Shown here piece after piece: positions 43,406-59,142 of a DNA stretch of 64,000 nucleotides (positions within the stretch are counted from its first letter, which is position 1; each line of letters opens with the position of its first letter). This DNA comes from Taklimakanibacter lacteus (GTDB taxonomy: Bacteria; Pseudomonadota; Alphaproteobacteria; Rhizobiales; Aestuariivirgaceae). The DNA lies in the NCBI GenBank assembly GCA_003576695.1, contig QOZQ01000005.1:186001-250000 (forward strand), given 5' to 3'. The translations under genes were made by a program, and so were the position numbers. The notes beneath the pieces are model-generated. The model made no database searches. It had not been told where the DNA came from and worked only from the letters and a program-made list of their open reading frames with translations.

Positions 43406-44083
43406 TCATGATCGACACAGACCTTCGACCAGCGCCGGCACCTGGTCGAAGCGATCGGCCAGGCCGTCAGGCGAGAGCTCGGCCAGAGGCCGCTTGGCAT
43501 AGCCATAGGTGACGGCGATGACCGGCACGCGCGCAGCCTTGGCCACCGCGACGTCCACCTCGGAATCGCCCACCATCACCGCCGGCCGGCCGGGAGCATC
43601 CGACGCCTGGATGGTGCGCAACAGCTGGCGCGGATCGGGCTTCGCCACGCCGAAGGTGTCAGGCCCCGAAACCACCGCAAAGCGGGCGATGAGGCCGAGA
43701 TCGGCGAGGATCTGGCGCGCATAGGCCTCGAGCTTGTTGGTGCAGACGGCCAGCCGCCATCCTTGGTCGCCGAGTCCGGCAAGCGCCGCCACGACGCCGT
43801 CATAGGGCCGGGTGCGGCGCGACAATCTTGCCGCATAGATTTCGCGGAACCGGTCGGCCAAGTGACGCAGCCCGTCGTCTTCAACCGTCACGCCACGCCG
43901 CGCCAGGCCCTGGCGCACCAGATTGTCCATGCCGTGACCGATCAAAGCGCGGGCAACATCGAGGCCCAGAGCTTCGCGGCCGTTCTCGATCAGGAGATCA
44001 TCGAGCGCATCGGCGAGATCGGGCGCGCTGTCGACCAGCGTGCCGTCGAGATCGAAGACGACGATGCCGCGGGGCCGTGCCAT
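43406..44083 (-). CDS. HAD phosphatase, phosphoglycolate phosphatase-like (Gph)
   Basis: The 225-residue HAD-IA phosphatase has motif I FDLDGTLVDSAPDLADAL (nucleophile Asp11 or so), motif II CTNKLEAYARQIL, motif III KPDPRQLL and motif IV VMVGDSEVDVAVAKAA. The start ATG (44083) overlaps the AcoC stop by four bases (ATGA), so they are coupled. Longer upstream frames lack homology. In locus B it may remove phosphate from glycolate- or sugar-type products; the substrate is inferred. Confidence 0.88.
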   Translation of the reverse strand: MARPRGIVVFDLDGTLVDSAPDLADALDDLLIENGREALGLDVARALIGHGMDNLVRQGLARRGVTVEDDGLRHLADRFREIYAARLSRRTRPYDGVVAALAGLGDQGWRLAVCTNKLEAYARQILADLGLIARFAVVSGPDTFGVAKPDPRQLLRTIQASDAPGRPAVMVGDSEVDVAVAKAARVPVIAVTYGYAKRPLAELSPDGLADRFDQVPALVEGLCRS

Positions 44084-45339
44084 CAACCGGCCGCCCTGAC
44101 CGTCTCGGCGACCAGGCGGCCGACCAGCGCCGCCGCTTCGATCTGCGGCAGATGGCCGACGCCGGCGAGCCGGTGAAGCGCCACATGGCCCGGAAGGTTT
44201 GTCGCCTGAGCCGCCGGGATGATGGCGTCCTCGACGCCGACAATCACGCGGCATGGCCCGTCAAAATGATCGAGCGCCTCGCGAATGGAGAAGAGCTGGG
44301 TCGAGCCTTCGAACAGTTTCGCCGCGGCGCGCCTCTGGCCGGCCGCGAGCCCGCTTCCCGCCCGCGCCGCCAGCGTCGCCCTGACCATCGCCTGGGGCAT
44401 TCCGGCGCGATCATGGAAGAGGCTGCCAAGCCAGCTGGCGAGCGCCGCCTCCGTCTGCGCGGCGAGGAAGCCGGCGATGAACTCGCCATCGATCCGGGGC
44501 CCGAGGCCGGCCGGCGCCAGAAGCGTCAGCGAGCGCACTTTGGGCTTGCCGCGCCGGGCGATGGCGGCCGCCACGGCGGCGCCCAGCGAATGGCCGACGA
44601 GGTGAATGCCGGCCTCTCCCTGCGCCGCCAGGGCCTGGCCGACCTGCGCCACGATGGTTGCGAAATCGGCATCCTCCAGCGGCGGCGAGGCGCCATGTGC
44701 CGGCAGATCGAGGCCGCGCATCGGATTGGCGAGGGTCAGATTGCCCAGGAAGGACCGCCACGAGGAAAGATCGGAACCAAAGCCGTGAATGAAGACGATG
44801 GGATCGCCCGTGCCGGCCTTGAGATCGCGAAAGGCGATCGCTGCCGCGGCCGTTGGCGTCGCATCAACCACTCCCCTGCGTCCGGCGAGTGCCGCCTCGA
44901 TGTCACGGCGAATGACGGCGCCCTTGGGACCGCTGCCCATGATGCGCCGGAGCTCGAGCCCGTTGCTTCGGGCGAGCCGGCGCGCCAGCGGTGATGACCT
45001 CAGAATTCCGTCAGTTGACGCCGCCGGCATGGCGGCCGGCGCCGATATTGCCGGAGCCGCGGCCGCCGGCATCGTGTTGTCGGCGGCATCGACCGCCTCA
45101 CCCGGCTCACCCAGAAGCAGCAGGGGCGTCAGCACGGTCGCGACGTCGCCCAGCCTGTAGGGCATATGGATGACCGTTCCGGCGGCGAAGGCCTCCACCT
45201 CGAAGCTTGCCTTTTCCGACTCCACCTCGGCGACGAGATCGCCCTTCTTCACCTTGTCGCCGAGCTTCACATGCAAGGCGACGATCTTGGCCTCGGTCAA
45301 ATCCTGCCCGACCTGAGGAACGAGTACTGGTTCGGCCAT
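44083..45339 (-). CDS. AcoC-type E2: lipoyl domain fused to alpha/beta-hydrolase
   Basis: The 418-residue protein has a lipoyl domain (Lys43 in VESEKASFEVEA), an E1/E3-binding domain (RSSPLARRLARSNGLELRRI, 114-133) and an alpha/beta-hydrolase domain. The hydrolase shows the GHSLGAAVAA elbow (Ser251), a VEDAIIP acid and a VGHLPQI His. It lacks the HxxxDG acyltransferase site, matching the AcoC type of acetoin dehydrogenase. The ATG at 45339 has a GGGAG ribosome site; GTG at 45348 is the alternative. No E3 gene is nearby. Confidence 0.9.
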   Translation of the reverse strand: MAEPVLVPQVGQDLTEAKIVALHVKLGDKVKKGDLVAEVESEKASFEVEAFAAGTVIHMPYRLGDVATVLTPLLLLGEPGEAVDAADNTMPAAAAPAISAPAAMPAASTDGILRSSPLARRLARSNGLELRRIMGSGPKGAVIRRDIEAALAGRRGVVDATPTAAAAIAFRDLKAGTGDPIVFIHGFGSDLSSWRSFLGNLTLANPMRGLDLPAHGASPPLEDADFATIVAQVGQALAAQGEAGIHLVGHSLGAAVAAAIARRGKPKVRSLTLLAPAGLGPRIDGEFIAGFLAAQTEAALASWLGSLFHDRAGMPQAMVRATLAARAGSGLAAGQRRAAAKLFEGSTQLFSIREALDHFDGPCRVIVGVEDAIIPAAQATNLPGHVALHRLAGVGHLPQIEAAALVGRLVAETVRAAG

Positions 45340-45360
45340 AAAGCTCACTCCCGAATTGCG

Positions 45361-46578: not shown

Positions 46579-46598
46579 CTTGCCTTCTCCTCGCGCGG

Positions 46599-47606
46599 TC
46601 ACTTTGCCGCGATGGCCATGGGCTGGATATGCAGCGCGCGCCGCGCCGCCCTGATCACATCGTCCTTCTGCGGCACGCTGGCTTTCTCGAGCTCGAGATT
46701 GAACGGGATCGGTATGTTGAGGCCGGCCACGATCTCGATCGGCGCATCGAGATCATAGAAGGCCTCTTCCTGGATGATCGAGGCGATATCCGAGGCGACG
46801 CCGCCGCGGCGCACCGCCTCCTGCACGATGACGGCGCGGTTCGTCCGGGCAACGGAGGCAAGGATCGTGTCCTTGTCGAGCGGCACCAGCGTGCGCGGAT
46901 CGACGACCTCGGCCTCGATCCCTTCCTCGGCGAGCGCAGCGGCGGCTTCCAGCGCGCGCGGGACCATGTTCGACCAGGCGATGATGGTGACATCCTTGCC
47001 GGGGCGCTTGATGTCGGCCTTGCCGAATTCGACGATATGCTCGCCTTCCGGCACCGGGCCCTTGGTCATGTAGAGATGCTTGTGCTCGAGGAACATCACC
47101 GGATCGTCCTGGCGCAATGCGTATTTAAGCAGGCCCTTGGCATCGGCGGGCACCGAGGGCATCACCACCTTGAGGCCCGGTATGTGATAGAAGAGCGCCT
47201 CGAGGCTCTGCGAATGCTGGGCGGCGACACCGCCCCCGGCGCCGCCTTGGGTGCGCATCACGAAAGGCACGCGCCCGTCGCCGCCGGTCATCAGGCGGAA
47301 CTTCGCCGCCTGGTTGACGAGCATGTCCATGCCGAGCATGGCGAAATCGACATAGAGAATCTCGACGATGGGCCTGGCGCCGGCAATGGCGGCGCCGACA
47401 CCGACGCCGATCATGCCGGCCTCGGCGATCGGCGTGTCGCGCACCCGCTTCGGCCCGTATTTCGCCAGGAGGCCCTCGGTCACCTTGTAGGAGCCGCCGC
47501 GCTCGGCGATGCCCTCGCCGATGATGAAGACATCGCCGTTGCGCTGCATTTCCTCATCGATGGCCTCGCGCAAGGCCTCGCGATACATGATCTCCCGCAT
47601 TGTCAT
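46599..47606 (-). CDS. Acetoin/pyruvate dehydrogenase-type E1 beta subunit, locus B
   Basis: The 335-residue E1beta shows the GEGIAERGGSYKVTEGL segment, RVRDTPIAEAGMIGVGVGAAI, and the C-terminal LVPLDKDTILASV. The locus A copy at 22728-23714 is a paralogue. The gap to the E1alpha stop is 18 bases. The neighbouring transaldolase and AcoC indicate an alpha-ketol cleavage role, but the substrate is not known. Confidence 0.91.
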   Translation of the reverse strand: MTMREIMYREALREAIDEEMQRNGDVFIIGEGIAERGGSYKVTEGLLAKYGPKRVRDTPIAEAGMIGVGVGAAIAGARPIVEILYVDFAMLGMDMLVNQAAKFRLMTGGDGRVPFVMRTQGGAGGGVAAQHSQSLEALFYHIPGLKVVMPSVPADAKGLLKYALRQDDPVMFLEHKHLYMTKGPVPEGEHIVEFGKADIKRPGKDVTIIAWSNMVPRALEAAAALAEEGIEAEVVDPRTLVPLDKDTILASVARTNRAVIVQEAVRRGGVASDIASIIQEEAFYDLDAPIEIVAGLNIPIPFNLELEKASVPQKDDVIRAARRALHIQPMAIAAK

Positions 47607-47624
47607 GATCCTTTCGGCTTTGCG

Positions 47625-48608
47625 TCAGTAAGCGGCCACGAATTCCCGGAACTCGGCGGGCGTGATCTCGCGGCTCTCCTTCGCGAAGCCGACGGCTTCG
47701 GCGAATTCGGCCGCGATCTCCGCCTCGATCGCAGCGATGTCGGCCTTGTCGGCGCCGGACATCTCGATGAGCGCGGTGCGCGCCCGGTCGATCGGATCGC
47801 GCGCCTTGTAATAAGCGAGGCGCTCCTCCGGCATGTATTTGCCGGGATCGTTCACGTGATGGCCCATATGGCGGAAAGTCTTCGCTTCGATGAGGATCGG
47901 TCCCTTGCCGGCGCGGCATTTCTCCACCGCCTCGCGGGTGAGGTGATAGACGGCGAGCGGATCGTTGCCGTCGACCTGATGGCTTTCGACGCCGATGCTC
48001 AGGCCGCGCTTGTAGAGATCGGGATCGCGTGTCGCCTCCTCGATCGGCGTCGAGACGGCATACTGGTTGTTCTCGATGACGAGGATGAAGCTCAGATTCC
48101 AGATGGCGGCAAGATTGAGCGATTCGAGGAAGGTGCCGTTGTTGGAGGCGCCATCGGTGGTGAAGGTGACGGTCACCGCATCGGACCCCCGAATCTGGGC
48201 GGCCAGCGCCGCGCCGACACCGAGCGGCGTGCCGGCCCCGACAATGCCGTTGGCGCCGAGATTGCCCCTGGCGATATCGGCGATGTGCATCGAGCCGCCA
48301 TAGCCGCGGCAATAGCCCGACTCCTTCTGGAGAAGCTCGGCGACCATGCGCTTCACATCCGCCCCCCAGGCTATGCAATGGCCGTGACCCCTGTGGGTCG
48401 AGGCGATGTAGTCGCCCTCCTGCAGGGCCGCGCAGACGCCGGTCGCGATGCCCTCCTGGCCGAGATAGGGGTGGAAATAGCCACGGATCAGACCCTGGCG
48501 GTAGAGCTTGATTCCCTCCGTCTCGAAGACCCTGATCCGATAGGCCGTGCGGAAAATTTTCTCCAGAAACTCACGTGAAGGCGCGTTTCTCTTGGCCGCC
48601 TCGTCCAT
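47625..48608 (-). CDS. Acetoin/pyruvate dehydrogenase-type E1 alpha subunit, locus B
   Basis: The 327-residue E1alpha shows the [20 protein letters not shown] loop and the ThDP motif, which reads FTTDGASNNGTFLESLNL to ENN at 180-181. The usual GDG is TDG here (Thr151-Asp152-Gly153). The locus A E1alpha has the normal GDG. It is the first gene of the leftward run E1alpha-E1beta-transaldolase-AcoC-gph. A candidate RpiR site lies 88 bases upstream. Confidence 0.91.
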   Translation of the reverse strand: MDEAAKRNAPSREFLEKIFRTAYRIRVFETEGIKLYRQGLIRGYFHPYLGQEGIATGVCAALQEGDYIASTHRGHGHCIAWGADVKRMVAELLQKESGYCRGYGGSMHIADIARGNLGANGIVGAGTPLGVGAALAAQIRGSDAVTVTFTTDGASNNGTFLESLNLAAIWNLSFILVIENNQYAVSTPIEEATRDPDLYKRGLSIGVESHQVDGNDPLAVYHLTREAVEKCRAGKGPILIEAKTFRHMGHHVNDPGKYMPEERLAYYKARDPIDRARTALIEMSGADKADIAAIEAEIAAEFAEAVGFAKESREITPAEFREFVAAY

Positions 48609-48926
48609 TTTCGCGCTCTCCCCGTATTGCCGTTTCTGTGCGAAAACATATGGTTGATGCGATATCTCCTACAACTGAACTGGCGGGCTTGTCGAGAAAA
48701 TTTTTTGCAAAGAATCATTTTGCCCAAGGTGATGCCCCATCCCCTTCCACAACCTTCAAATGCATCCCAAATGTGAAAAATTCTTTTAACATATTGATTT
48801 TAAACAACTATCATGCCTATAGCTGCAAATATTCACAAAAGATGTGGGGTTCTGCGGAGGAAAATTGCTTTCTTGCAATCCCGGCGCTAAGTTGCGGCCA
48901 TCACCACGCGCTCACTTACCCAGCTG
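48609..48926. other. Divergent promoter gap of the E1 run and rpiR; no gene seen
   Basis: The 318-base gap is strongly AT-rich, with TTTTAAC, TGAAAAATTC and GATTTTAAAC stretches. It contains the candidate RpiR site at 48696-48711. Two promoters pointing outwards are expected; no frame is supported. Confidence 0.7.
48696..48711. promoter_or_regulatory. Candidate RpiR operator 1
   Basis: GAAAATTTTTTGCAAA, 13/16 identical to the reverse complement of TTTGCAAATTTTTTTC at 54401-54416. It lies in the E1alpha/rpiR divergent gap. RpiR-family sites are often GAAA-T-rich palindromes, so the match is plausible but visual. Confidence 0.5.
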
Positions 48927-49835
48927 ATGACCGATACACATTCGACGGCAGCGACACCCAACGGCGACCTGCTGCACCGCATCCAGGAGCGCTACGGAAA
49001 TCTGAGGAAATCGGAGCGCGTGGTCGCCGACTATCTGCGCGAGCATTCCGGCAGCCGGCTCAATGCGTCGATCACCGAGCTCGGGCAATTGCTGGGCGTC
49101 AGCGAGGCGACGATCAGCCGGGTCAGCCGGGCGCTCGGCTATCAAGGCTATCCCGATCTCAAGCTGTCGCTGGCCGAAGGGTCGCGCCATCGCACCGCCT
49201 TCGCCAATGTCCCGGTCGAGATCGACGAGAACGACTCGCTCGTCACCACCAGCGGCAATCTTGCAGCCCTCCTCGCCGCGAGCCTGCAGGGCACGCAGCG
49301 CATGCTCGACGGCGCCCGGCTCGAGCGGGCCGTCGAGGCGCTGTGCGCGGCGCGGCGCATCCTGTTCGTCGGCGTCGGCGGTGCCGCCTCCATTTGCGAC
49401 GAGGCGGCGCATCTCTTCATCAAGGCCGGGCTCGACGCGATCTCCTATCGCGACGGCTATACCCAGACGATCGGCGCCGCCAATATGACGCCGAACGACG
49501 TCATGGTCGGCGTCTCGCATACCGGCAAGACCGACACCGTCGCGGTGGCGCTCGATATCGCGCGCGAGAATGGCGCCACCACCATCGCGATCACCAGCGA
49601 CGCCACATCGCCCGTCGCCAAGGCGGCGCATGTCACGCTCACCACCTGGAACTCCTCGACCCCCTCGATCCCGCTCTATGGCGACTTCCTCGAGGGCCGC
49701 ATCAGCCAGCTGTTCCTGATCGACCTGCTCTATCTGGGTCTTCTGTTCCGCCTCGGCGCCAAGACCGCCAAGCACCTCAAGGCCACCGGCCAGGCGCTGG
49801 AAAAGCATTACCGCCTGCGCGGCGGCGAGCGCTGA
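48927..49835 (+). CDS. RpiR/MurR-family sugar-phosphate-responsive regulator
   Basis: The 302-residue regulator has the RpiR HTH (ITELGQLLGVSEATISRVSR, near 49-68; RALGYQGYPDLK) and a SIS domain (FVGVGGAASICDEAAHLF and VGVSHTGKTDTVAVAL). The SIS domain binds a phosphosugar. It is divergent from the E1 run and convergent with the HAD gene (stops abut). It is the natural regulator of locus B. Confidence 0.92.
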   Translation: MTDTHSTAATPNGDLLHRIQERYGNLRKSERVVADYLREHSGSRLNASITELGQLLGVSEATISRVSRALGYQGYPDLKLSLAEGSRHRTAFANVPVEIDENDSLVTTSGNLAALLAASLQGTQRMLDGARLERAVEALCAARRILFVGVGGAASICDEAAHLFIKAGLDAISYRDGYTQTIGAANMTPNDVMVGVSHTGKTDTVAVALDIARENGATTIAITSDATSPVAKAAHVTLTTWNSSTPSIPLYGDFLEGRISQLFLIDLLYLGLLFRLGAKTAKHLKATGQALEKHYRLRGGER

Positions 49836-50546
49836 TCAATACCGCTCCACCAGCGCCCGGCAGTGGGCCAGACCGATCCCGACATCGAGATCCGGCACGA
49901 CGATGTCCGCCAGGCGGAAATCCTCATCCGCGGTATAGGCCGAGCGAGTGACGATGCAGCGCATGCCGGCGGCCCTGGCGGCGGTGAGGCCGATATGGCT
50001 GTCCTCGACGACGACGCAGCGGCGCGGATCGAGCGCCAGCGTCCTCGCCGCGAGATTATAGATCGCCGGATCCGGCTTCTTGGCGGCGACAATGTCGCCG
50101 GCGAAGATCGATATGTGCCGGGCGCGCGATGAGCCCAGCATCACCTCGACCAGCCGCGTCACCGCGCGCTCGTTGGAGGTCGAGCATACGGCAAGGCGAA
50201 GGCCGGCCGCGATCGCCTCATCCGCCAGCCGGGCGATGCCGGGGCGCAGCGGCAGGCTTCCCGCCTCGATCAATTCCATGAAGAGGTCGGTCTTGCGCTT
50301 ATGCAGCGCCTTGATCAGGCCATCGCGCTCCGCCGCGGCAACGGACCAGCCGGTCTCGTCGAAATGACGGATCATGCGCTCCTTGCCGCCGGCGGTGGAG
50401 AGCAGCTCGGCATAGCGCTCGACCGACCATTGCGCGGCGACGCCCTGCTCGGCGAAGGCGCGGTTGAAGGCGACACGGTGGCCGTCGCGCTCGGTATCGA
50501 CGAGCACACCGTCGCAATCGAAGATCACCGCGGCAATGGCGCTCAT
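49836..50546 (-). CDS. CbbY-like HAD-IA phosphatase
   Basis: The 236-residue HAD protein starts VIFDCDGVLVDTERDGHRVAF, very similar to CbbY, which dephosphorylates xylulose-1,5-bisphosphate. Asp11 and Asp13 are the catalytic pair, and motif IV KKPDPAIYNLAARTL precedes VVVEDSHIGLTAARAAG. Here it is in a sugar operon, one base after the aldolase stop, so a sugar-bisphosphate or bypass phosphatase role is likely. A beta-phosphoglucomutase is the alternative. Confidence 0.85.
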   Translation of the reverse strand: MSAIAAVIFDCDGVLVDTERDGHRVAFNRAFAEQGVAAQWSVERYAELLSTAGGKERMIRHFDETGWSVAAAERDGLIKALHKRKTDLFMELIEAGSLPLRPGIARLADEAIAAGLRLAVCSTSNERAVTRLVEVMLGSSRARHISIFAGDIVAAKKPDPAIYNLAARTLALDPRRCVVVEDSHIGLTAARAAGMRCIVTRSAYTADEDFRLADIVVPDLDVGIGLAHCRALVERY

Positions 50547-50547
50547 C

Positions 50548-51411
50548 TCAGGCCCCCGCCCTGCCGACCGAGCCGAAAGCGCGCACCATCGCGCTCACAT
50601 CGTGCTTCATGGCCTCATACTGGCGGATGATGAAGGGCAAGGGCTCGCCGAGCTTCGGCTTCTCGGTCTTGAGATCGGCGAAGCCATCGATGAAGCAGCG
50701 CTTGTGCATGGTCGAGATATTGACCTTGGCGCAGCCGCCGGCGATGCAGCGGTCGAACTGCTCCTGGCTGAGGCCGGTACCGCCATGCAGCGCGATCGGG
50801 ATATCGACGCGCCGGGTGATGGCGCGCAGCAGGTCATAGGCGATCTTGGGCTCGCCCTTGTAGAAGCCATGCGCCGTGCCGATCGCCGGCGCGAAGACGG
50901 CGAGCTTCGGCATCTCCTTGCAGAAGGCGACGCATTCATCGAGATCGGCGAGCAGCGCCTTGTCCTCGGCGACGAATTTGTCGTCCTCGGTGCCGCCAAT
51001 GGCGCCCATCTCGGCCTCAAGCCCGATGCCGGCCGCTTCGGTCAAACGATAGACTTCGAGCGAGCGCTCGAGATTCTGAGCGAAGGGCAGCGCCGAGCCG
51101 TCGAACATCACCGAAGTCCAGCCGGCATCGATGCAGCGCCGGATGACATCGATGTCGCTGCAATGGTCGAGATGAAGGGCGACCGGGATATCGACGCCCT
51201 CGGCCAGCATGCGGACCCAGGCGGCAACCGGCGCATAACCCCAATGGCGCACCGTCTTGACCGATACCTGGACGATCACCGGCGCCTTGAGGTCGGCGGC
51301 GCCTTCGACGATCGAGCGGGCGCTGTTGTAGTCGATCATGTTGTAGGCGGCGACGCCGTAGCGGCCTGCCTGCGCTTGCTTGAGCATGGGCCGCATCGAT
51401 ATGAGGGGCAT
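50548..51411 (-). CDS. Class II fructose-bisphosphate/tagatose-bisphosphate-type aldolase
   Basis: The 287-residue zinc aldolase has VALHLDHCSDIDVIRR (Asp and the first Zn His), EAEMGAIGGTEDD (Glu), VFAPAIGTAHGFYKGEP (His) and PIALHGGTGLSQE (last His). It cleaves ketose-1-phosphate or bisphosphate to dihydroxyacetone phosphate plus an aldehyde. It is 1 base from the HAD gene and 81 bases from the VOC gene, with a hairpin in the gap. The preferred sugar is not evident. Confidence 0.91.
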   Translation of the reverse strand: MPLISMRPMLKQAQAGRYGVAAYNMIDYNSARSIVEGAADLKAPVIVQVSVKTVRHWGYAPVAAWVRMLAEGVDIPVALHLDHCSDIDVIRRCIDAGWTSVMFDGSALPFAQNLERSLEVYRLTEAAGIGLEAEMGAIGGTEDDKFVAEDKALLADLDECVAFCKEMPKLAVFAPAIGTAHGFYKGEPKIAYDLLRAITRRVDIPIALHGGTGLSQEQFDRCIAGGCAKVNISTMHKRCFIDGFADLKTEKPKLGEPLPFIIRQYEAMKHDVSAMVRAFGSVGRAGA

Positions 51412-51442: not shown

Positions 51443-51472
51443 AGCCGAGGCGGGAGGCGACCCGCCTCGGCT
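51443..51472 (-). terminator. Intra-operon hairpin between VOC and aldolase genes
   Basis: A perfect 12-bp stem (AGCCGAGGCGGG / CCCGCCTCGGCT, loop of 6) is followed on the minus strand, after 8 bases, by TTTTATTT. It lies in the 81-base gap before the aldolase. It may attenuate the aldolase/HAD part of the operon or end a shorter transcript. Confidence 0.65.
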
Positions 51473-51492
51473 GGGTTTCGGCCGTCGTCCGG

Positions 51493-52044
51493 TCAGATCT
51501 TCGTCTCTTCCAGATATTTGGGGTGGAACAACCGCGTCTTGCCCGACTTCTTGGCTTCATCGTCATAGACGGTGCCCTTCGGCGCCGAGACGATCTCGAG
51601 CTGCTGGCCCCAGGGCGCCATGAAGTAGCACCAGGTCAGGCCGAGATTGGGCCCGTCGGTATAGGAAGTCGGCTCGCCCAGCACCTTGACGCCGTTCTTC
51701 CTCAGGAAGGCGACCGCTTCCGCCATGTCGTCGACATAGAAGGCGAGGTGATGGCCGCCGATGTCGCTGTTCTTGGGCGGCAGCGGATTCTGGTCGGGCG
51801 CCTCATACTGGAAGACCTCGAGATTGGTGCCGTTGCCGCAGCGCAGATAGCGGAACTCGGTGATGACGCAACGCGGATCGACATTGAGATGAACCTTCAT
51901 CCAGTCGCCATCGGCCTTGAAGTTGGTGGCGGCGGTGAACAGGACTTCGGCTCCCAGGATCTTCTCGAAGAAGTCGCAGGCTTCGTTGATGTCGGGCACC
52001 GTGAAGCCGATATGCTCCATGCCGCGCATTCCCGGAATTGGCAT
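51493..52044 (-). CDS. VOC-family (glyoxalase-like) metal-dependent enzyme
   Basis: The 183-residue VOC protein has two beta-alpha-beta-beta-beta units, EHIGFTVPDINEACDFFEK and GGHHLAFYVDDMAEAVAF, with His11 and a second His in HH, and Glu in TNLEVF and QQLEIVS as likely metal ligands. It could be a lactoylglutathione-lyase-like isomerase, an epimerase or a dioxygenase. In a sugar operon with a kinase and aldolase, an epimerase or isomerase acting on a ketose phosphate is a reasonable guess. Confidence 0.85.
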   Translation of the reverse strand: MPIPGMRGMEHIGFTVPDINEACDFFEKILGAEVLFTAATNFKADGDWMKVHLNVDPRCVITEFRYLRCGNGTNLEVFQYEAPDQNPLPPKNSDIGGHHLAFYVDDMAEAVAFLRKNGVKVLGEPTSYTDGPNLGLTWCYFMAPWGQQLEIVSAPKGTVYDDEAKKSGKTRLFHPKYLEETKI

Positions 52045-52070
52045 TGTGATCTCCTTTTCGTTGCGATGTT

Positions 52071-53636
52071 TCAGTAGTGGCGCGCCACGAAATCGGCGAG
52101 CTGCTGATATTGTCCGGCGGCGGCGATCGCCTCATAGAAGCCGCGATAGATCTGATGCTGGTCGTTGTAGAGATTGCCGGTCTTGCCATTGGGCTCGAAC
52201 TCGGCCTCGACCTGAACCATGGCGCCGACCGCCTCGTCGATCGTGGCGAAGGCGCCCGAGCCGAAGGCGCCCAGGATCGCAGCGCCGAGAACGGTGCATT
52301 CCCTTTCACGGGTGACCCGCGCGGGCTTGCCGATGATATCGGTCATGATCTGCACGAAGCCGTCCGACTTGGTGCCGCCGCCGGTCAGGCGGAAATCATT
52401 GATGCCGCCATCGATGTCGCTGTCGAAGGCATCGACCACCATGCGCATCTCATGCGCGCAGCCTTCGAGCAGCGCCCGGATCATGTCCTGACGGTCGTGA
52501 TAGAGGCCGAGGCCCAGGAAGCCGCCGCGCGAGGCGGCGTCGTAATAGGGCGTGACCTGGCTGGTCAGGAAGGAATGGAAGATCGCTCCCTTGGCGCCGG
52601 GCGGCGACTTGCCGGCCTGCTCGACCATGATCGAATAGGGGCTGCGGCCCTGGCGCGAGCTTTCATCGAGCTCGTTGCGGCCGAGATTGTTGCGCCACCA
52701 TTTGAGACAGGCGCCGAGGCTGAAGGCGGCACCCTCGATATCCCAGGCGCCCGGCACGCCATGGCCGCCCCACCACAGATTGCGCCCCTTGATGCGATCG
52801 AGGCTGTCGAGATGCGCTACCATCACGCCCGATGTTCCGACGGTGAACTCGGCCATGCCCTGGCGGATCACGCCGGCGCCGATCGCGGCGCATTGCTGGT
52901 CGCCGGCGCCGCGGCATAAAGTGATGCCGGCCGGCAGGCCGGTCGCCTCGGCCGCTTCCTTCGACAGGACACCCGCCTCGCCCGACGGGATGCCGACCGG
53001 CGGCAGCCGGTCGCGCCCGATGCCGCACAGGGAGAGGATGCGGTCGCTCCAGTCGAGCTTGCGGATATCCATCATGCCGTTGAGCGTCAGCGAGGCCGGA
53101 TCGGTAACCCATTCCTCGGCGCCGAGCCGGCGCAGGAAATATTCCTGGCCATTGGCGAACCAGCGCGTCTTGCCGAACAGAGCGGGCTCATTGTCGCGCA
53201 GCCAGGCGATCTTCGCCGCCGCCCAGATCGGGCTCAGCTGCATGCCGGTATGGGTCTGATGCTCTTCCGGCGAAATTTCCCTGGCAAAGATGTCGCGATA
53301 TTTGAGGGCGCGCCCGCAATTCCACACGATCGAATTGGCGAGCGGCCGCTTGTCGTCGTCGAGCATCAGGAACGTGCCGCGCTGGCTCGACAGGCCGACC
53401 GAGCGATAGGCCTCGGCCGGCAGATCGGCGTTCTTTACGGCCTGGCGCGAGGCCGAACAGATGCCGGCCCAGACCAATTCGACATCCTGCTCGCTCCAGC
53501 CCGGCTTGGGCGATACGCAAGGATATTCCTCGTAGCCATGGCCCAAGGCATTGCCGCGCTCGTCGAAGATCATCACGGTGCAGCCGGTCGTTCCGGCATC
53601 GATGCCGACAAACGCCTTGACGCGTCCCTTTGGCAT
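52071..53636 (-). CDS. FGGY-family carbohydrate kinase
   Basis: The 521-residue kinase has the phosphate-1 motif FVGIDAGTTGCTVMIFDERG at the N terminus, FTVGTSGVMVAHLDSL, and the adenosine motif RLTGGGTKSDGFVQIMTDII near 430. The family phosphorylates xylulose, ribulose, erythritol, gluconate or glycerol; which one cannot be read. The ATG at 53636 has an AGGAGG ribosome site. An upstream frame to 53666 is not conserved. It is 8 bases after the transglutaminase-like gene. Confidence 0.92.
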   Translation of the reverse strand: MPKGRVKAFVGIDAGTTGCTVMIFDERGNALGHGYEEYPCVSPKPGWSEQDVELVWAGICSASRQAVKNADLPAEAYRSVGLSSQRGTFLMLDDDKRPLANSIVWNCGRALKYRDIFAREISPEEHQTHTGMQLSPIWAAAKIAWLRDNEPALFGKTRWFANGQEYFLRRLGAEEWVTDPASLTLNGMMDIRKLDWSDRILSLCGIGRDRLPPVGIPSGEAGVLSKEAAEATGLPAGITLCRGAGDQQCAAIGAGVIRQGMAEFTVGTSGVMVAHLDSLDRIKGRNLWWGGHGVPGAWDIEGAAFSLGACLKWWRNNLGRNELDESSRQGRSPYSIMVEQAGKSPPGAKGAIFHSFLTSQVTPYYDAASRGGFLGLGLYHDRQDMIRALLEGCAHEMRMVVDAFDSDIDGGINDFRLTGGGTKSDGFVQIMTDIIGKPARVTRERECTVLGAAILGAFGSGAFATIDEAVGAMVQVEAEFEPNGKTGNLYNDQHQIYRGFYEAIAAAGQYQQLADFVARHY

Positions 53637-53644
53637 GTTTCCTC

Positions 53645-54250
53645 CTATGCTTCCTCTGGCATCCATTTCGTCAGGAGTTCGAGAAAACTCCGGCGATCTT
53701 TTCGTTGTTGCTCGGACAAGGTCGCGACGAGCTTCGCCTTGTGTTCGATCACATCCTCGGCGCGCGATATGTGGCCGTCGGGGGTGAGCGCGATCAACGT
53801 ATCGCCGCTGCCGTCCCAGGCCGCATTCACCGGAAAGCCCAAGGGCGCCAGAGCATCGGGCCAGGTGGCGTCGAGTTTTTTCTCGCGCATGCCGTCATGC
53901 CAGACGACATAGCAATGGAAATCGCGGATGCCGCCGGCGCGCACCCAGCGGGCAAGCGCCTCAGGCATCGAGGCGACCGCCGGCATGCCCCTGGCGAAAT
54001 CTCCCGCGGCGAATTCGACATCGGCGTGCCAGCCGACGCGGCGCAGAAGGTCGCGCAATAAGATGTGCTTGCCGGTGCAGGCGCCCCTGCCCGTCTTCAG
54101 GACGATGGCGGGATCGCGATTGCCGTCGGATGCATAAATAAGATTGCGCACGGCATGATAGATCGCCGGCACGGAAGGCAGGCTCAGCCCGCCGGCATGG
54201 CGGGCAAGGAAGGCATCAAGCTGTTGCGGATAGGACGCTTCTGCTCTCAT
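53645..54250 (-). CDS. Transglutaminase-like (papain-fold) protein in sugar operon
   Basis: The 201-residue protein has a visible Cys-His-Asp triad of the transglutaminase-like superfamily: GRGACTGKHILLRDLLRRVG (Cys58), IRDFHCYVVWHD (His112) and KKLDATW (Asp127). I see no signal peptide. It lies between the importer ATPase and the FGGY kinase on the same strand, and probably heads the kinase-VOC-aldolase transcript, with a promoter in 54251-54511. A role as an amidase or peptidase for a modified sugar or for control is inference. Confidence 0.8.
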   Translation of the reverse strand: MRAEASYPQQLDAFLARHAGGLSLPSVPAIYHAVRNLIYASDGNRDPAIVLKTGRGACTGKHILLRDLLRRVGWHADVEFAAGDFARGMPAVASMPEALARWVRAGGIRDFHCYVVWHDGMREKKLDATWPDALAPLGFPVNAAWDGSGDTLIALTPDGHISRAEDVIEHKAKLVATLSEQQRKDRRSFLELLTKWMPEEA

Positions 54251-54400
54251 GACCGTTCCAGCGCAGCTGCGCTTGCCCGGCTCGGCGTGCGGCGCGTCCC
54301 GCCCATGATGGATGCCTCCCTGAAAGCAATTTTCTTATTTTCTGTCTTTCCGAGAACTATGCACGAAGGGTCCAGCAGCGTCCAGCAGGATTCACCTATA

Positions 54401-54416
54401 TTTGCAAATTTTTTTC
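54401..54416. promoter_or_regulatory. Candidate RpiR operator 2
   Basis: TTTGCAAATTTTTTTC; its reverse complement matches the site at 48696 in 13 of 16 bases. It lies in the 54251-54511 gap (261 bases, no gene) before the transglutaminase-kinase-aldolase genes. A second, weaker AT-rich stretch follows. Confidence 0.5.
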
Positions 54417-54511
54417 ATGAATTGCGCTGACATTCTAGGAGAAACCACCTCCGTCCGGAACGTCTTCAGGTGCCTGCGCCGCAGCCTGAAAATTTCCTTC
54501 GGAGACTCCGC

Positions 54512-55606
54512 CTAGAAAAAAGCCTTGCCGGTGACGGCGTCGAAGGCGTGCCATTTGTCACGATTGACGGTGACATAGCAAGCCTCGCCCGGGGCGCCGG
54601 CGAATTCCGGCGCCGTCTTGACCCTTATGCGGGCATCGGCGAGCTCAACCTCGACGATCATGTCGCCGCCCAGGAGCTCATTGACGAAGACCTTGCCGGT
54701 GATCGCAGGCTCGGCCGGGCGCGTCATCGATATTGCGAGCGCATCGGGCCTGACCCCCATGCGCACGGTGGCCGCGGTCCCGGCTCCGTTCAGGCATTTC
54801 ATCTGCTCCGGCTTCAGTGCCAGCGCGAAATCGGGGTGGGTGAGCATGAGCTTGCCGCCGGCATTGGTGATCTCGCAGGTGAGGAAATTCATCGCCGGCT
54901 CGCCGACGAATCCCGCCACCCAGGCATTGACCGGCTTGTTGTAGACCTCGCGCGGGGAGCCAAGCTGCTGCAGCTCGCCCTCATGCATGACCGCGATCTG
55001 ATCGGCCATCGACATGGCTTCGAGCTGGTCATGGGTGACATAGACCATGGTGGTGCCGAGCGTGCGCTGCATGTGCTTGATCTCGCCGCGCATATGCGCC
55101 CTGAGCTTGGCGTCGAGATGGGCGATCGGCTCGTCGAACAGGAAGAGCTTGGGCTCGCGTACGATGGCGCGACCGATGGCGACGCGCTGCTTCTGGCCGC
55201 CCGACAGTTCCTGCGGCCGGCGCTCCAGCAAATGGCCGATCTCGAGAAGCTTTGCCGCCTGGGTGACGCGGTCCTTGATGCGCGCCCCTTCCTGGCCCCT
55301 GAGCTTCAGGGGGTTGGCCATGTTCTCGAACACGGATTTATGCGGATAGAGCGCGTAGTTCTCGAAGACCATGGCGACGTCGCGGTCCTTCGGCGCCAGG
55401 TCATTGATGCGCCGGTCGTCGAACAGGATGTCGCCGGCGCTGATATGCTCGAGGCCCGCCACCATGCGCATGGTCGAGGACTTGCCGCAGCCGGAGGGGC
55501 CCAGGATCGACAGGAAGCTCCCATCCGGACAATCGATGTTCAGGTCCTTCACGGCGGCGAACTCGCCGTATTTCTTCCACACATTGCGGAACGTTACTCT
55601 GGCCAT
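54512..55606 (-). CDS. ABC transporter ATP-binding protein, UgpC-type sugar importer, locus B
   Basis: The 364-residue ATPase has Walker A GPSGCGKSSTMRM, signature LSGGQKQRVAIGRA, Walker B LFLFDEPIAHLDAKLR and H-loop YVTHDQLEAMS, plus a TOBE-type C-terminal domain. The Q-loop reads MVFENYALYP (Glu82), where Gln is usual, as in the locus A copy MVFQSYALYP. It is 12 bases after the MalG-type permease. Confidence 0.92.
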   Translation of the reverse strand: MARVTFRNVWKKYGEFAAVKDLNIDCPDGSFLSILGPSGCGKSSTMRMVAGLEHISAGDILFDDRRINDLAPKDRDVAMVFENYALYPHKSVFENMANPLKLRGQEGARIKDRVTQAAKLLEIGHLLERRPQELSGGQKQRVAIGRAIVREPKLFLFDEPIAHLDAKLRAHMRGEIKHMQRTLGTTMVYVTHDQLEAMSMADQIAVMHEGELQQLGSPREVYNKPVNAWVAGFVGEPAMNFLTCEITNAGGKLMLTHPDFALALKPEQMKCLNGAGTAATVRMGVRPDALAISMTRPAEPAITGKVFVNELLGGDMIVEVELADARIRVKTAPEFAGAPGEACYVTVNRDKWHAFDAVTGKAFF

Positions 55607-55618
55607 GAAATTCTCCGA

Positions 55619-56497
55619 TTATTCCTTGACCGCGCCCATGGTCAGGCCGGTGACGAGATATCTTCTGATGACGAGGCCGAGCAGCATCATCGGCAATGTG
55701 GTGACGACGCCCGCCGCCATGATCGAGCCCCACTGGATATTCTGCGGCTGGACCAGCTCGCGCGTCGCCACCGGGAGCGTCTTGGCGCCGCCCGAGCCGA
55801 TGATCGCGGCAAACAGGAAATCGTTCCAGGCGAAGAGGATGCACAGCACGATGAAGGCGCCGATGCCGGGCGCCACCAGAGGCAGGATCGCCATGAAGGC
55901 CTGGAAGCGCGTGGCGCCATCGACCATCTGGGCCTCCTCGATCGCATAGGGCACGTTGTCGAAGAAGCCCTTCAGGATCCAGATGGCGAAAGGCAGGTTG
56001 AAGGTGGTGTAGGCGAGGATCAGCCCCGGCAGAGTGCCGACGAGATCGAGCGAGCGGAAGATGGCATAGAGCGGCACCATCACCGCGACCACCGGCGCCA
56101 TGCGGGTCGAGATGATCCAGAAGAACAGGTCGCTCTTGCCCTTGAAGTCGATGCGCGACAGCGAATAGGCGGCCATCGAGCCCAGGATCACCGAGATCAC
56201 CGCCGAGCCGCCGGCCGCCACCAGGCTGTTCGCCATGTAGCGGCTGAAGTCGAGATTGAGGAAGAGATCGCGATAATGCTTGAGCGTCGGGGTGAAATCG
56301 AAGAAGACGCCGATGCCCGACCAGTCGCCGACCGCAGGGATCTTGAAGGCCTCGAGCAGGTCCTTGAAGGACGACACGAACATCACGAAGATCGGCAGCA
56401 GCGTCCAGACGAGATAGAGCGCGATGAACACGGCCGAAAACCAGCGGAAGCCGCGGGTGAGCGGTGTCTCATATCGGACGACGTCGCGGGAGGCCAT
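55619..56497 (-). CDS. Carbohydrate ABC transporter permease (MalG-type), locus B
   Basis: The 292-residue permease has about six membrane segments and an EAA loop EEAQMVDGATRFQAFMAILP near 188-207. Its start is 3 bases after the MalF-type stop. It forms the import channel with the neighbour below. Confidence 0.92.
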   Translation of the reverse strand: MASRDVVRYETPLTRGFRWFSAVFIALYLVWTLLPIFVMFVSSFKDLLEAFKIPAVGDWSGIGVFFDFTPTLKHYRDLFLNLDFSRYMANSLVAAGGSAVISVILGSMAAYSLSRIDFKGKSDLFFWIISTRMAPVVAVMVPLYAIFRSLDLVGTLPGLILAYTTFNLPFAIWILKGFFDNVPYAIEEAQMVDGATRFQAFMAILPLVAPGIGAFIVLCILFAWNDFLFAAIIGSGGAKTLPVATRELVQPQNIQWGSIMAAGVVTTLPMMLLGLVIRRYLVTGLTMGAVKE

Positions 56498-56500
56498 GGC

Positions 56501-57499
56501 TCAGGATTTCCTCGTCTGCTGGCGGTCGAAGACCTTCACCAGGATCATGCCCAGAATGATGGTGACGACGAGCAGCGTCAGAGCGATCGCCGCGCCGCGG
56601 CCGAGCTTGAAGAACTTGAACGACACTTCGAACAGATAGATCGGCAATATCTTGGTGGCATTGCCGGGGCCGCCGCCGGTGAGGACGAGGGCCGAATCGA
56701 TGAAGCGGAAATTGTCCATGAAGCGCAGCATCACCGCGATCAGCAGCACCGGATAGAGATTGGGCAGCGTGATCGAGAAGAAGTTGCGCAGGGGCGAGGC
56801 GCCATCGACCATATTGGCCTCGAGCTGGTCCTGCGGAACGCGCTTGAGGCCGGCAAGCGTGATCAGTGTGATGAGCGGCGTCCATTGCCACACATCGACC
56901 AGCACGATGCCCAACATCGCCGTGCCGGGGCTGGCGAGGATCGACTTGGCGTCGAGCAGGCCGACGCTCTGGAACAGCCAGTGATACCAGCCGAAGGTGC
57001 CGTTATAGAGGAAGTACCAGACGAGACCGGCGACAATCGGCGCCATCATCATCGGCATCAACAGGGTGGTGACGAGGATCTTCTCGAAGCGAGACCCGTT
57101 GAGCACGACGGCGAGGAACACGCCGATGCCGATCTGCAAGGCGAGGCACATGAGGCTGTACTGGAAGAGCAGCGTCCAGCCCTTGAGGTATCGCGTGTCG
57201 GTGACGAGCCTGGTGAAGTTCTCGAAATTGTTCCAGGTGGCCGAGCCGATCTCCACATCGTGGAGGCTCATATAGATCATCCAGAAGAACGGATAGAGCG
57301 AGATGCAGGCGAGCAGCAGGATGGCGGGCGCCATCAGCCAGAAGAAATAGGCCTTGGACGGCGGCGGGTTGAGCTTCGCCGGCTCGGCGATGAGGGACGG
57401 CGCCGGGCGCGCCTCGACATTGTCGAGGAGCTGGCGGACGCGAAACAGGCCTTCGCTTTGCCGCAAGGATGGTTCAGGTGAAAGCAAGGTGTCGGTCAT
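56501..57499 (-). CDS. Carbohydrate ABC transporter permease (MalF-type), locus B
   Basis: The protein is about 332 residues with a cytoplasmic N-terminal tail and about six membrane segments (YFFWLMAPAILLLACISLYP first). The EAA loop ANMVDGASPLRNFFSITLP is present. Starts at 57499 or 57523 are both plausible, and neither has a strong ribosome site. A perfect hairpin (57566-57597) precedes it. It forms the channel with the MalG-type partner. Confidence 0.9.
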   Translation of the reverse strand: MTDTLLSPEPSLRQSEGLFRVRQLLDNVEARPAPSLIAEPAKLNPPPSKAYFFWLMAPAILLLACISLYPFFWMIYMSLHDVEIGSATWNNFENFTRLVTDTRYLKGWTLLFQYSLMCLALQIGIGVFLAVVLNGSRFEKILVTTLLMPMMMAPIVAGLVWYFLYNGTFGWYHWLFQSVGLLDAKSILASPGTAMLGIVLVDVWQWTPLITLITLAGLKRVPQDQLEANMVDGASPLRNFFSITLPNLYPVLLIAVMLRFMDNFRFIDSALVLTGGGPGNATKILPIYLFEVSFKFFKLGRGAAIALTLLVVTIILGMILVKVFDRQQTRKS

Positions 57500-57565
57500 C
57501 GATCTCGTGTCGGCAGCCGTCATCGACGCGGCAGGTCGGAACGGCAGGGGCTTGCAGCCGGAAAA

Positions 57566-57597
57566 CCGGTCCGGCGGCCGTGACGCCGCCGGACCGG
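57566..57597 (-). terminator. Hairpin between binding-protein and permease genes, locus B
   Basis: A perfect 13-bp stem (CCGGTCCGGCGGC / GCCGCCGGACCGG, loop of 6) lies 16-47 bases after the binding-protein stop (57613), followed on the minus strand by TTTTCC. It probably ends or stabilises part of the transcript so binding protein exceeds permease. The equivalent gap in locus A carries a repeat. Confidence 0.7.
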
Positions 57598-57612
57598 CAG
57601 GTTTGAGGAAAC

Positions 57613-59142
57613 TTAGCCCGCCCCATTCAGCTCGTCGAGCTGCGACTGGAGCGACTTGCACGTGTCCTCCGGCGACTGCTCCCCAGAACAGCATTTCTGC
57701 ACTTCGGCGGCGAGGATCGAGTGATATTCGTTGGCCTGCGGAATCTTGGGGCCAAGCACGAAGTGCGGATCCTTGATGCCGTAGTCATAGACGGGCTCGA
57801 AGGTGAGCGCGTTCGGCATGGTGGTGGGACGCACCCTGGCCTTCTTCACCTCGTCCATCGCCAGCACCGACTTGCGGGTCGGCGTGCCGCCGAGGCCCTT
57901 CAGCACGTTGAACTGGTTTTCGCGCGACACCGACCAGATGGCGAAGATATAGGCGGCGCGCTTCAGATCCTCGGAGGCATTGTTGTTGATGCCGATGCCG
58001 CCGATGCCGCAATTGGTGCCGTTGACGGCCTCGCCGCCATTCTTGATCCAGCTCGCCTCGCCCTTCGGACAGACCGCATAGGCCGTCTTGCCCCCGGCCG
58101 CGCGCGATTTCGTCTCGTCCTCGATCGATGCGGCAAATTCGTGATACTGGACCTGCATCGCGATATTGCCGGACTGGTAGACGGTGTTCAGCTCGAGCGT
58201 GCCGTTGGCCAGGTTGTCGGGATGCGACACATCGGCCAGCTCCTTGAACCTGGTCATGGTGAGGATCGACTGCTCGTCGCCCCAATTGGTCTTGCCGGGC
58301 GTCTTGGAGCCAAGCTTGTCGTCGACCGGCCAGTCGATCCAGCGGCCATTGGCGAAGAGCATGCGCTGGATGTCGAGCTGCGTCGTCCAGGCGAAGGACC
58401 CCTGATGCTGGGCGTAGCCATAGGGCACGTCCTTGCCGGCTTCCTTGGCCTTCTTGAAGAAGGCGGCCATGTCGGTCACCTGCTTCCAGGTCGTGTCCTT
58501 GGTGAATTCGAGACGGTAGCCATATTCGGCCTCGAAATCCTTGCTGTTCGCCTCGAACAGATCCTGGCGATAGAAGGTGCAGGCGATGGCGGCGTCATAG
58601 GGGAGTGCGATGATCTTCCCTTCAGTGTAGAAACGGCCGCAGGCGGAGAGGAAATTCTCGAACCAGGCGTCGTCGCCATAGCCATCGGCATCCTGCGGCA
58701 AGGTGTTGTCGCCGAACATGGGCGTGAGGTCGGCGTAGAAATCGGCGAAGGGCGCCCCGATCGGCTTGTCCTGGACATAGTTGAGCACATAGTCCGACTT
58801 GCCGCCGCGCAGGTCGATGCCGACCTTCTGCTGCACGACCGGCAGGTCGTCGGTGAGAATGGTGACATCGATGCCGGTCAGATCGGTGAAGGCCTTGATA
58901 TTGTCGCGGATGGCGAAGGAGGGCGGCGTGTTCTCCGACATGAAGACGAGCTTGGAGCCCGAATATTGCTTCCACTTGGCGTCATCGGAAGACGCGGCCT
59001 GGACGCGGCTGCGGGTGACGGTCGATCCGAGGCCCAGCGTCAGCGAGCCGACGCCCAGAGCGGAAGCTGCACCGCCGCCGAGCTCGAGAAATTTGCGGCG
59101 GCTGACACGGCTATAGACTGCGTCTTTCGGCACATAAAACAT
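57613..59142 (-). CDS. Tat-exported sugar ABC transporter substrate-binding protein, locus B
   Basis: The 509-residue binding protein has a twin-arginine signal (SRRKFLELGGGAASALGVGS). It belongs to the family 1 extracellular solute-binding proteins (NIKAFTDLTGIDVTILTDDL, FLSACGRFYTEGKIIALPYD). It is first in the importer operon, with a 595-base promoter gap upstream. The substrate is not known. Confidence 0.92.
   Translation of the reverse strand: MFYVPKDAVYSRVSRRKFLELGGGAASALGVGSLTLGLGSTVTRSRVQAASSDDAKWKQYSGSKLVFMSENTPPSFAIRDNIKAFTDLTGIDVTILTDDLPVVQQKVGIDLRGGKSDYVLNYVQDKPIGAPFADFYADLTPMFGDNTLPQDADGYGDDAWFENFLSACGRFYTEGKIIALPYDAAIACTFYRQDLFEANSKDFEAEYGYRLEFTKDTTWKQVTDMAAFFKKAKEAGKDVPYGYAQHQGSFAWTTQLDIQRMLFANGRWIDWPVDDKLGSKTPGKTNWGDEQSILTMTRFKELADVSHPDNLANGTLELNTVYQSGNIAMQVQYHEFAASIEDETKSRAAGGKTAYAVCPKGEASWIKNGGEAVNGTNCGIGGIGINNNASEDLKRAAYIFAIWSVSRENQFNVLKGLGGTPTRKSVLAMDEVKKARVRPTTMPNALTFEPVYDYGIKDPHFVLGPKIPQANEYHSILAAEVQKCCSGEQSPEDTCKSLQSQLDELNGAG

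Follow-up and report, generated by a model that had tools for sequence, protein, structure and literature searches.

A 64,000-nucleotide stretch of the Taklimakanibacter lacteus genome (contig QOZQ01000005.1, positions 186,001 to 250,000; genome size 5.78 Mb), hereafter the window, carries 15 genes between positions 43406 and 59142 that join a sugar importer and kinase to an E1/E2 complex dependent on thiamine diphosphate (ThDP) and lipoate. The region, Locus B, consists of two blocks flanking an RpiR regulator gene. The first is read on the minus strand in the order binding protein, two permeases, ATPase, transglutaminase-like (TGase-like) protein, FGGY kinase, VOC protein, aldolase and HAD phosphatase; the regulator follows on the plus strand, and the second block, again on the minus strand, runs from E1 alpha (E1a) and E1 beta (E1b) through a long transaldolase and E2 to a Gph-like protein. 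The rpiR gene is divergent from E1a and lies end-to-end with the HAD gene. Starts were corrected for two genes (Gph near 44083; transaldolase probably 46578). All genes that an earlier sequence-only reading had named here were found as open reading frames in the interval it gave (Table 1).

Table 1. Genes and candidate operators of Locus B, in window positions
Feature	Position	Strand	Basis
ABC-type sugar-binding protein (SBP_bac_8), twin-arginine motif	57613..59142	-	family match + orthologues
ABC permease 1	56501..57466	-	family search
ABC permease 2	55619..56497	-	family search
UgpC/MalK-like ABC ATPase	54512..55606	-	422 bits, cut-off 432
Weak operator copy (candidate; 2 mismatches), upstream of TGase-like gene	54487..54498	.	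palindrome scan
Transglutaminase-like protein	53645..54250	-	predicted structure + alignment
FGGY sugar kinase, no named subfamily	52071..53636	-	best model XylB 290 bits, cut-off 380
VOC (glyoxalase-fold) protein, possible isomerase	51493..52044	-	family match
Class II ketose-bisphosphate aldolase (F_bP_aldolase)	50548..51411	-	family match
CbbYA-type HAD phosphatase	49836..50546	-	61% to Arabidopsis At3g48420
MurR/RpiR-family regulator (HTH_6 + SIS)	48927..49835	+	domain matches
Candidate RpiR operator AAAAAATTTTCT, 1 mismatch to AGAAAATTTTCT, 87-98 bp before E1a	48695..48706	.	palindrome scan
ThDP E1 alpha (E1a), own clade	47625..48608	-	family match + tree
ThDP E1 beta (E1b)	46599..47606	-	family match
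Long transaldolase, about 405 aa	45361..46578	-	family match
AcoC-type E2: lipoyl, E3-binding, alpha/beta-hydrolase domains	44083..45348	-	family match
Gph-like HAD (phosphoglycolate phosphatase family)	43406..44083	-	family match

Family and domain matches establish the predicted parts of the locus: an importer, an FGGY kinase, an aldolase of the dihydroxyacetone phosphate (DHAP) type with a CbbYA-type phosphatase, and E1 and E2 proteins of AcoABC architecture. The E1a, kinase and HAD proteins were each used to query order-wide samples of 397 genomes (E <= 1e-100, 1e-180 and 1e-60, respectively), with the best few candidates per genome being scored (up to 5, 3 and 7). The three queries matched the identical five genomes, which represent three genera and include the source genome; such a coincidence was computed to be vanishingly unlikely if the three sets were independent. 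This was the search for co-conserved neighbouring families that the sequence-only reading had proposed, and it bore the grouping out. All five clusters unite RpiR, importer, TGase-like protein, kinase, VOC protein, aldolase, HAD, E1 and E2, and a transketolase is present in the stretch in two of them. As the five genomes are related, the claim is limited to the parts travelling together. Locus B is a real, rare, co-inherited sugar cluster, the grouping of which is not due to chance. In a class-wide sample of 385 genomes, E1a was found in the source genome only.

The first relatives of the locus had been found via a transaldolase query, which returned at least 80 loci, 34 of them with E1a at >= 60% identity. 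Counts over these 34 loci are biased by the query and overstate the linkage of transaldolase; the identity thresholds for each gene were set by us, and many of the contigs are cut. E2 was present in all 34, E1b in 33, RpiR in 32 and Gph in 25. Aldolase and HAD were each present in 24 (the same loci), kinase and TGase-like protein each in 17, and VOC protein in 14; lpdA was found in 17 loci, transketolase in 13, a xylose-isomerase-like TIM protein (PF01261) in 13 and a second triose-phosphate isomerase (Tpi2) in eight.

The long transaldolase itself matches PF00923 (TAL_FSA; 113.7 bits), and K168, which we take to be the Schiff-base lysine, is near-invariant in 78 sequences. The protein fails the named transaldolase models (best NCBIfam score 105 bits, cut-off 367). 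It is the sole TAL_FSA match in six of the eight sphingomonad genomes tested, and is therefore probably an ordinary transaldolase. Of the five clusters found without a transaldolase query, three contain it; for the other two, one ordinary transaldolase lies elsewhere in the genome. The E1a search thus showed the gene to be optional, and it was dropped from the cluster core. L059-L094 and other sphingomonad loci carry the long transaldolase without E1/E2, often near genes resembling those of protocatechuate/gallate 4,5-cleavage (names assigned by eye).

The E1/E2 complex shares with AcoABC its E1 alpha and beta subunits and an E2 with lipoyl, E3-binding and alpha/beta-hydrolase domains. The AcoC-type assignment of the E2 in the sequence-only reading held, albeit narrowly (313.6 bits to NCBIfam model NF011457, cut-off 307); K46 and S254, D374 and H399 are near-invariant in 30 sequences, and we assume functional roles for K46 and for the Ser-Asp-His set. 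E1b passes the pyruvate dehydrogenase E1 beta subfamily model NF006667 (408 bits, cut-off 321). Both results would fit an acetoin or pyruvate dehydrogenase that lies in a sugar operon by happenstance, as would a metagenome-assembled genome of Xanthobacteraceae in which an acoXABC-like set (NAD_kinase-domain gene, E1a, E1b and E2; L035:12762-17233) stands directly downstream of the cluster. The E2 of that set scores 473.4 bits to NF011457. Conservation of the E1/E2 genes with acetoin genes, which the sequence-only reading had named as grounds for giving up a sugar role, was not seen in general, this locus being the exception.

Several features separate the Locus B complex from the acetoin system (AcoABC, with acoX and acoR). 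The 13 Locus B-type sequences in an E1a tree form a single group (100/100 support) apart from two AcoA-like sequences, which were identified by their neighbouring genes as no AcoA model was met; deeper branching in the tree is unsure owing to long branches. E1a of the locus is 43% identical to each of these two sequences, and across the clade, identities to acetoin-type E1 and to the E1 linked to DRL-domain oxidoreductases range from 43 to 46%. The source genome contains a separate set elsewhere, comprising an NAD_kinase-domain gene (which we take to be acoX), AcoA-like and AcoB-like E1 genes, and the first part of an E2 gene. No acoX-like gene was found among the called genes of Locus B, and the partners are an RpiR gene, sugar transport, kinase, aldolase and transaldolase. 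According to PMC3543383, acoX is typical of acetoin operons. Kinase, HAD and E1a also occur together or not at all in the 397 genomes at the thresholds used. Acetoin catabolism was rejected as the principal explanation on the grounds of the separate acoXAB-like set, the distinct E1a clade and the sugar partners, and a happenstance acetoin or pyruvate dehydrogenase is considered very unlikely.

Clade-fixed residues that are absent from outgroups were collected from 38 sequences, giving 35 positions in E1a (10 outgroup sequences) and 61 in E1b (six outgroup sequences). Alpha Tyr44, alpha His251 and beta Tyr85 were picked out and are presumed to line the pocket. Position 44 is F, T, P or M in the 10 outgroup sequences (phenylalanine in the pyruvate- and acetoin-type sequences), and position 85 of E1b is phenylalanine in all six. 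The two tyrosines suggest a more polar pocket, albeit that they are hand-picked from the 35 and 61 positions and placed by alignment, which weakens their value as an indication of the substrate.

The sequence-only reading had suggested a sugar or deoxyketose as the substrate; with the latter, E1/E2 would cleave a 1-deoxyketose phosphate to acetyl-CoA and an aldose phosphate. The AcoC-type E2 and the GIV stretch that E1 shares with acetoin- and pyruvate-type E1 are consistent with this, as is the related E1 group that adjoins a DRL-domain oxidoreductase, for which 1-deoxyxylulose 5-phosphate (DXP) would be the natural substrate. However, family searches found no DRL gene in Locus B, E1a forms a clade separate from the DRL-linked E1a, and the partners transaldolase, transketolase and triose-phosphate isomerase act on 1-hydroxy ketoses and so favour ordinary ketose phosphates. 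A deoxyketose is accordingly regarded as an improbable substrate for Locus B and fits better with a second locus of the window, Locus A. The argument from E2 type to substrate is also weakened: among otherwise alike DRL-linked sets, Terrarubrum has an AcoC-type E2, and Rhizobium, S. meliloti and Locus A have CAT-type ones, so that E2 type is a weak guide to substrate, whichever substrate is proposed, a ketose phosphate included. The exchange can be seen in L107:7964-9265, L108:7965-9248 and L109:7995-9284 (one AcoC-type and two CAT-type).

Locus A (window 20257-33714) comprises a PfkB kinase, a CAT-type E2, E1b, E1a, a DRL-domain (PF21135) oxidoreductase, an ABC transporter and a SorC-type regulator. 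The DRL-domain enzyme, E1 and E2 recur in S. meliloti pRM41A with a sugar ABC transporter, lpdA and lipA, and in Terrarubrum and Rhizobium with genes for a glucitol-type phosphotransferase system. Locus A may convert methylerythritol-type compounds via methylerythritol phosphate and DXP to acetyl-CoA and glyceraldehyde 3-phosphate (GAP). Among DRL-domain enzymes, an active DXR-II clade is set apart from DLO relatives in PMC3847144.

An indication of the chemistry in Locus B comes from the aldolase and its neighbouring phosphatase. The aldolase matches PF01116 (7.4e-80) and passes the ketose-bisphosphate aldolase subfamily model TIGR00167 (229.6 bits, cut-off 215.6), falling under every equivalog cut-off for named specificities. 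HLDH and HGGTG motifs are present in the aldolase alignments, and are presumed to have functional roles there. The best solved relative of the HAD protein is CbbYA of Arabidopsis (At3g48420; 4uav, 282.6 bits; 61% identity over 216 aa), followed by CbbY (4uar, 154.5 bits), making it a close match to a characterised xylulose 1,5-bisphosphate (XuBP) phosphatase. XuBP is a product of Rubisco misfire. According to PMC10212915, it forms when DHAP adds to glycolaldehyde phosphate in an aldol reaction, and CbbY-type enzymes remove its phosphate 1. In a review (PMC9833046), XuBP is the preferred substrate of these enzymes and fructose 1,6-bisphosphate (FBP) a far poorer one, and CbbY orthologues are believed not to occur outside photosynthetic organisms. 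The HAD protein resembles Arabidopsis CbbYA and Rhodobacter CbbY in sequence, but differs from them in adjoining an aldolase in a sugar-catabolic cluster and in that its cluster also occurs in genomes without a Rubisco-family protein (five of the 14 E1-cluster genomes, four of these five having the HAD in the cluster). Nor was a Rubisco-family match found in the two genomes tested in which the aldolase-HAD pair accompanies DhaK/DhaL kinases. One HAD match (L142; G529:C2:438406-439101) has one in-frame TGA.

As the phosphatase next to the aldolase belongs to the CbbYA type, i.e., one acting on C1 of a ketose bisphosphate, the aldolase probably condenses. These observations suggest that the pair would best be read as converting an aldehyde phosphate and DHAP to a ketose 1,n-bisphosphate and then to a ketose n-phosphate. 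The sequence-only reading had placed cleavage by aldolase and transaldolase ahead of oxidation. This order found no support in that form, given the condensing direction suggested by the phosphatase and the absence of transaldolase from two of the five clusters. Its other proposal, that a sugar importer and kinase linked to RpiR are coupled with a ThDP/lipoyl complex of AcoC type, was supported.

The import genes bear on the identity of the E1 substrate. A type I module (TGase-like protein, kinase and VOC protein) is found in the window, Aestuariivirga and Rhodobacterales, and a type II module in Shinella, Rhizobium and Mesorhizobium (glycerol-type ABC transporter and, where the stretch extends far enough, XylB-like kinase and GlpD-like dehydrogenase); in Metarhizobium (L039) the type I importer is placed after the E1 block. 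The import modules vary and the core is constant. The type II import genes of Phyllobacterium zundukense (L130) resemble those of Shinella (binding protein 89%, kinase 62%, GlpD-like protein 60%), there being no E1/E2 within the 25.5 kb examined; an acetolactate-synthase-like ThDP enzyme (L130:13593-15368) lies immediately after the kinase within the operon. In Pleomorphomonas, kinase, GlpD-like and ABC genes are present without E1/E2 and without that ThDP enzyme. Two ThDP enzymes that are unrelated to each other follow importers of this one kind, which suggests that they act on the ketose phosphate produced by the kinase and the GlpD-like enzyme.

A scheme can be drawn from these components in which E1/E2 would oxidatively cleave a ketose phosphate to a small acyl-CoA and an aldehyde phosphate, the pieces being recycled by the aldolase and CbbYA-type phosphatase. 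In type I loci a ketose would be imported and then phosphorylated, and in type II loci, as in Shinella, a polyol would be imported, phosphorylated and oxidised by the GlpD-like enzyme. E1 would attack the ketose-phosphate carbonyl in the manner of transketolase, with departure of the aldehyde phosphate, and E2/E3 would hand the two-carbon unit to CoA, giving NADH and an acyl-CoA that is probably glycolyl-CoA. The aldolase would join the aldehyde phosphate to DHAP and the phosphatase would strip phosphate 1 to leave a ketose monophosphate, xylulose 5-phosphate (Xu5P) where glycolaldehyde phosphate is the aldehyde. This could re-enter E1 directly or pass via transaldolase and transketolase, with triose-phosphate isomerase restoring DHAP. 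The Gph-like protein, which barely passes the PGP_bact model (182.1 bits, cut-off 180), could remove phosphoglycolate arising from glycolaldehyde phosphate.

The most economical input, and the best-fitting one, would be a tetrulose 4-phosphate of the erythrulose type, giving two glycolyl-CoA per C4. Tetrulose 4-phosphate would yield a glycolyl unit and glycolaldehyde phosphate, Xu5P a second glycolyl unit and GAP, and GAP would be returned to DHAP. The computed balance gives two C2 per C4 and fails upon removal of any of the five steps, which is a check of consistency and not evidence. The odds on the scheme as a whole, in our estimation, are about even, and the same applies to a ketose phosphate as the E1 substrate; the C4 version is doubtful. 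Oxidative cleavage of a ketose phosphate is nonetheless judged likelier than any rival, the substrate and the acyl-CoA both being inferred.

A related alternative is a phosphoketolase-like cycle, in which E1/E2 would act on fructose 6-phosphate (F6P), sedoheptulose 7-phosphate and Xu5P, the aldolase and HAD would provide a route through FBP and sedoheptulose 1,7-bisphosphate (SBP), and trioses would be converted wholly to C2-CoA, i.e., an oxidative version of engineered non-oxidative glycolysis. A linear programme returned 1.5 C2 per DHAP with aldolase and HAD and without transaldolase or transketolase if E1 accepts all three ketoses (again a consistency check), and the same yield with E1 acting on Xu5P or F6P alone when transaldolase and transketolase are supplied; with Xu5P alone and neither enzyme, the cycle is infeasible. 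The transketolase and Tpi2 genes of the 34 loci (13 and eight) would suit such a cycle, as would XylA and XylB downstream in L034 and L040. However, the source genome already has a phosphoketolase, and FBP is the far poorer substrate for CbbY-type enzymes in the review cited above (PMC9833046). This cycle is regarded as unlikely.

E1 might also act on a small alpha-ketol that is non-phosphorylated or branched (dihydroxyacetone, erythrulose or apulose 4-phosphate), the aldolase and HAD then serving another branch of the regulon. The PF01261 protein in 13 of the 34 loci is in keeping with this, and apiose/apulose is chemically possible; these words are absent among the literature matches listed, which cover part of the literature. 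In L077, L095 and L134 the aldolase-HAD pair stands beside DhaK/DhaL kinases without E1, an arrangement that favours this alternative and detracts from the ketose-phosphate scheme; the pair there may act on FBP or SBP. The presence of the kinase in all five clusters of the order-wide search argues against a non-phosphorylated substrate, and a small alpha-ketol is thought highly unlikely. L134:7117-15064, on a Cryobacterium plasmid, encodes aldolase, CbbY-like HAD, DhaL, DhaK, aquaporin, a heme-binding protein, tpiA, rpiB and a split transketolase.

Other observations weigh against oxidative cleavage of a ketose phosphate with recycling by the aldolase and phosphatase. No enzyme that would use glycolyl-CoA was recognised among the cluster genes, the cluster of the window is without lpdA or transketolase, and the scheme leaves the TGase-like and VOC proteins without a function. 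Aldolase and HAD are missing from 10 of the 34 E1a-bearing loci, mostly on cut contigs, and the stretches of L029, L034 and L058 lack both. The source genome has a phosphoketolase (as do six of the 14 cluster genomes) and a PFK-family protein (eight of 14), so that no obvious gap would be filled by the cluster; the phosphoketolase (XFP) lies on a different contig (C22) from the window (C20), and none is in the cluster. A Rubisco-family match was found in nine of the 14 E1-cluster genomes, and a repair role for the HAD may consequently apply in those. Two of the nine matches exceed 450 bits and seven are best at 69-255 bits, these seven being taken to be Rubisco-like proteins, that of the source genome (246.8 bits) included.

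The intergenic regions between rpiR and E1a were examined for a shared operator. A palindrome, AGAAAATTTTCT, was chosen from 36 such regions and then counted in those same regions, some of which are near-copies, so that selection and counting are not independent; it occurs at <=1 mismatch in 24 of the 36 (shuffled mean 0.25, maximum 2) and at <=2 mismatches in 32 (shuffled mean 2.33, maximum 6). In 23 of the 24 regions with <=1 mismatch, the palindrome begins 85-115 bp ahead of E1a; in L057 the distance is 312 bp. The window has three matches at <=2 mismatches (chance mean 0.65), of which the one at 48551-48562 was set aside as coding, lying inside E1a. The palindrome is predicted to be the binding site of RpiR.

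Further copies occur elsewhere in some relatives. Stagnihabitans (L058) has one with one mismatch between the GlpD-like gene and the kinase/ABC block, Shinella (L020) has a 2-mismatch copy in the same place and one more inside a GntR gene, and Metarhizobium (L039) has 2-mismatch copies before the aldolase and before the binding protein; chance means at these loci are 0.11-0.43. Outside the rpiR/E1a regions, L058 is the only locus with the palindrome before another block at <=1 mismatch. No copy at <=2 mismatches was found in L026, L110, L131 or L134, and none of the six 2-mismatch matches in L130 lies between the GlpD-like and kinase genes. The absences and the scarcity of copies at <=1 mismatch outside those regions count against common control of the blocks by the palindrome, and the copies in L058, L020 and L039 speak for it. 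The locus is best read as one RpiR-linked sugar regulon.

No description of this gene set was found among the matches listed by full-text literature searches (titles and opening lines of abstracts), in agreement with the sequence-only reading, which knew of no named pathway with the exact set; subscription journals fall mostly outside the coverage of these searches, making this weak evidence of novelty. Non-oxidative glycolysis likewise releases C2 units from ketoses with recycling. Like the proposed scheme, the artificial phosphoketolase pathway (PMC10547157) combines ThDP-dependent C2 release from ketoses with recycling by phosphatase, isomerase or aldolase and by transaldolase and transketolase. 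The scheme differs from it in using a natural, lipoyl-dependent, CoA- and NAD-linked complex encoded in a single cluster, and in probably yielding glycolyl-CoA where that pathway yields an acetyl unit. A sulfosugar pathway (PMC11659671) similarly combines transketolase and transaldolase steps, but no E1/E2 is mentioned in its title or the opening of its abstract. Sulfoquinovose was considered on account of the transaldolase and transketolase; neither inspection by eye nor the family searches pointed to a sulfosugar gene in Locus B, no dedicated search having been made.

A natural lipoyl-dependent ketose-phosphate dehydrogenase complex, an oxidative counterpart of transketolase and phosphoketolase, coupled to an aldolase/CbbYA pair with XuBP as a normal catabolic intermediate is possible, if on balance not expected. 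It would constitute a new route of sugar breakdown and add ketose phosphates to 2-oxo acids and acetoin as a substrate class of the 2-oxo-acid-type dehydrogenase complexes. The XuBP phosphatase would gain a role outside carbon fixation, and the natural, CO2-free and NADH-yielding conversion of sugar to C2-CoA would be relevant to carbon-conserving metabolic engineering. The cluster also points to a family of E1 and E2 proteins, currently named after acetoin or pyruvate in alphaproteobacteria, that is open to checking.

The remaining proteins were characterised from alignments and predicted structures. The binding protein carries a twin-arginine motif (SRRKFL, read by eye), and four aligned orthologues are 73-89% identical; it has no PDB sequence match at E <= 1e-5, and no ligand could be derived from its AlphaFold model, which has a mean predicted confidence (pLDDT) of only 34.6. 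The TGase-like protein gave no match in Pfam and NCBIfam searches, nor any in a plasmid search with it as query. Its predicted model is confident (pLDDT 91.5), and a Foldseek search with it ranked a putative cysteine protease, the isopeptidase PeiP and TglA highest (E 2.7e-4 to 9.1e-4, TM about 0.4); C58, H112 and D127 are invariant among 10 aligned sequences. The Rhodobacterales clusters L038, L046, L048 and L050 contain an ABM-domain protein, a metallo-beta-lactamase-fold hydrolase and a Pfam-less protein between HAD and rpiR. In the window, a tRNA-Phe gene (59738-59813) lies upstream of the binding-protein gene.

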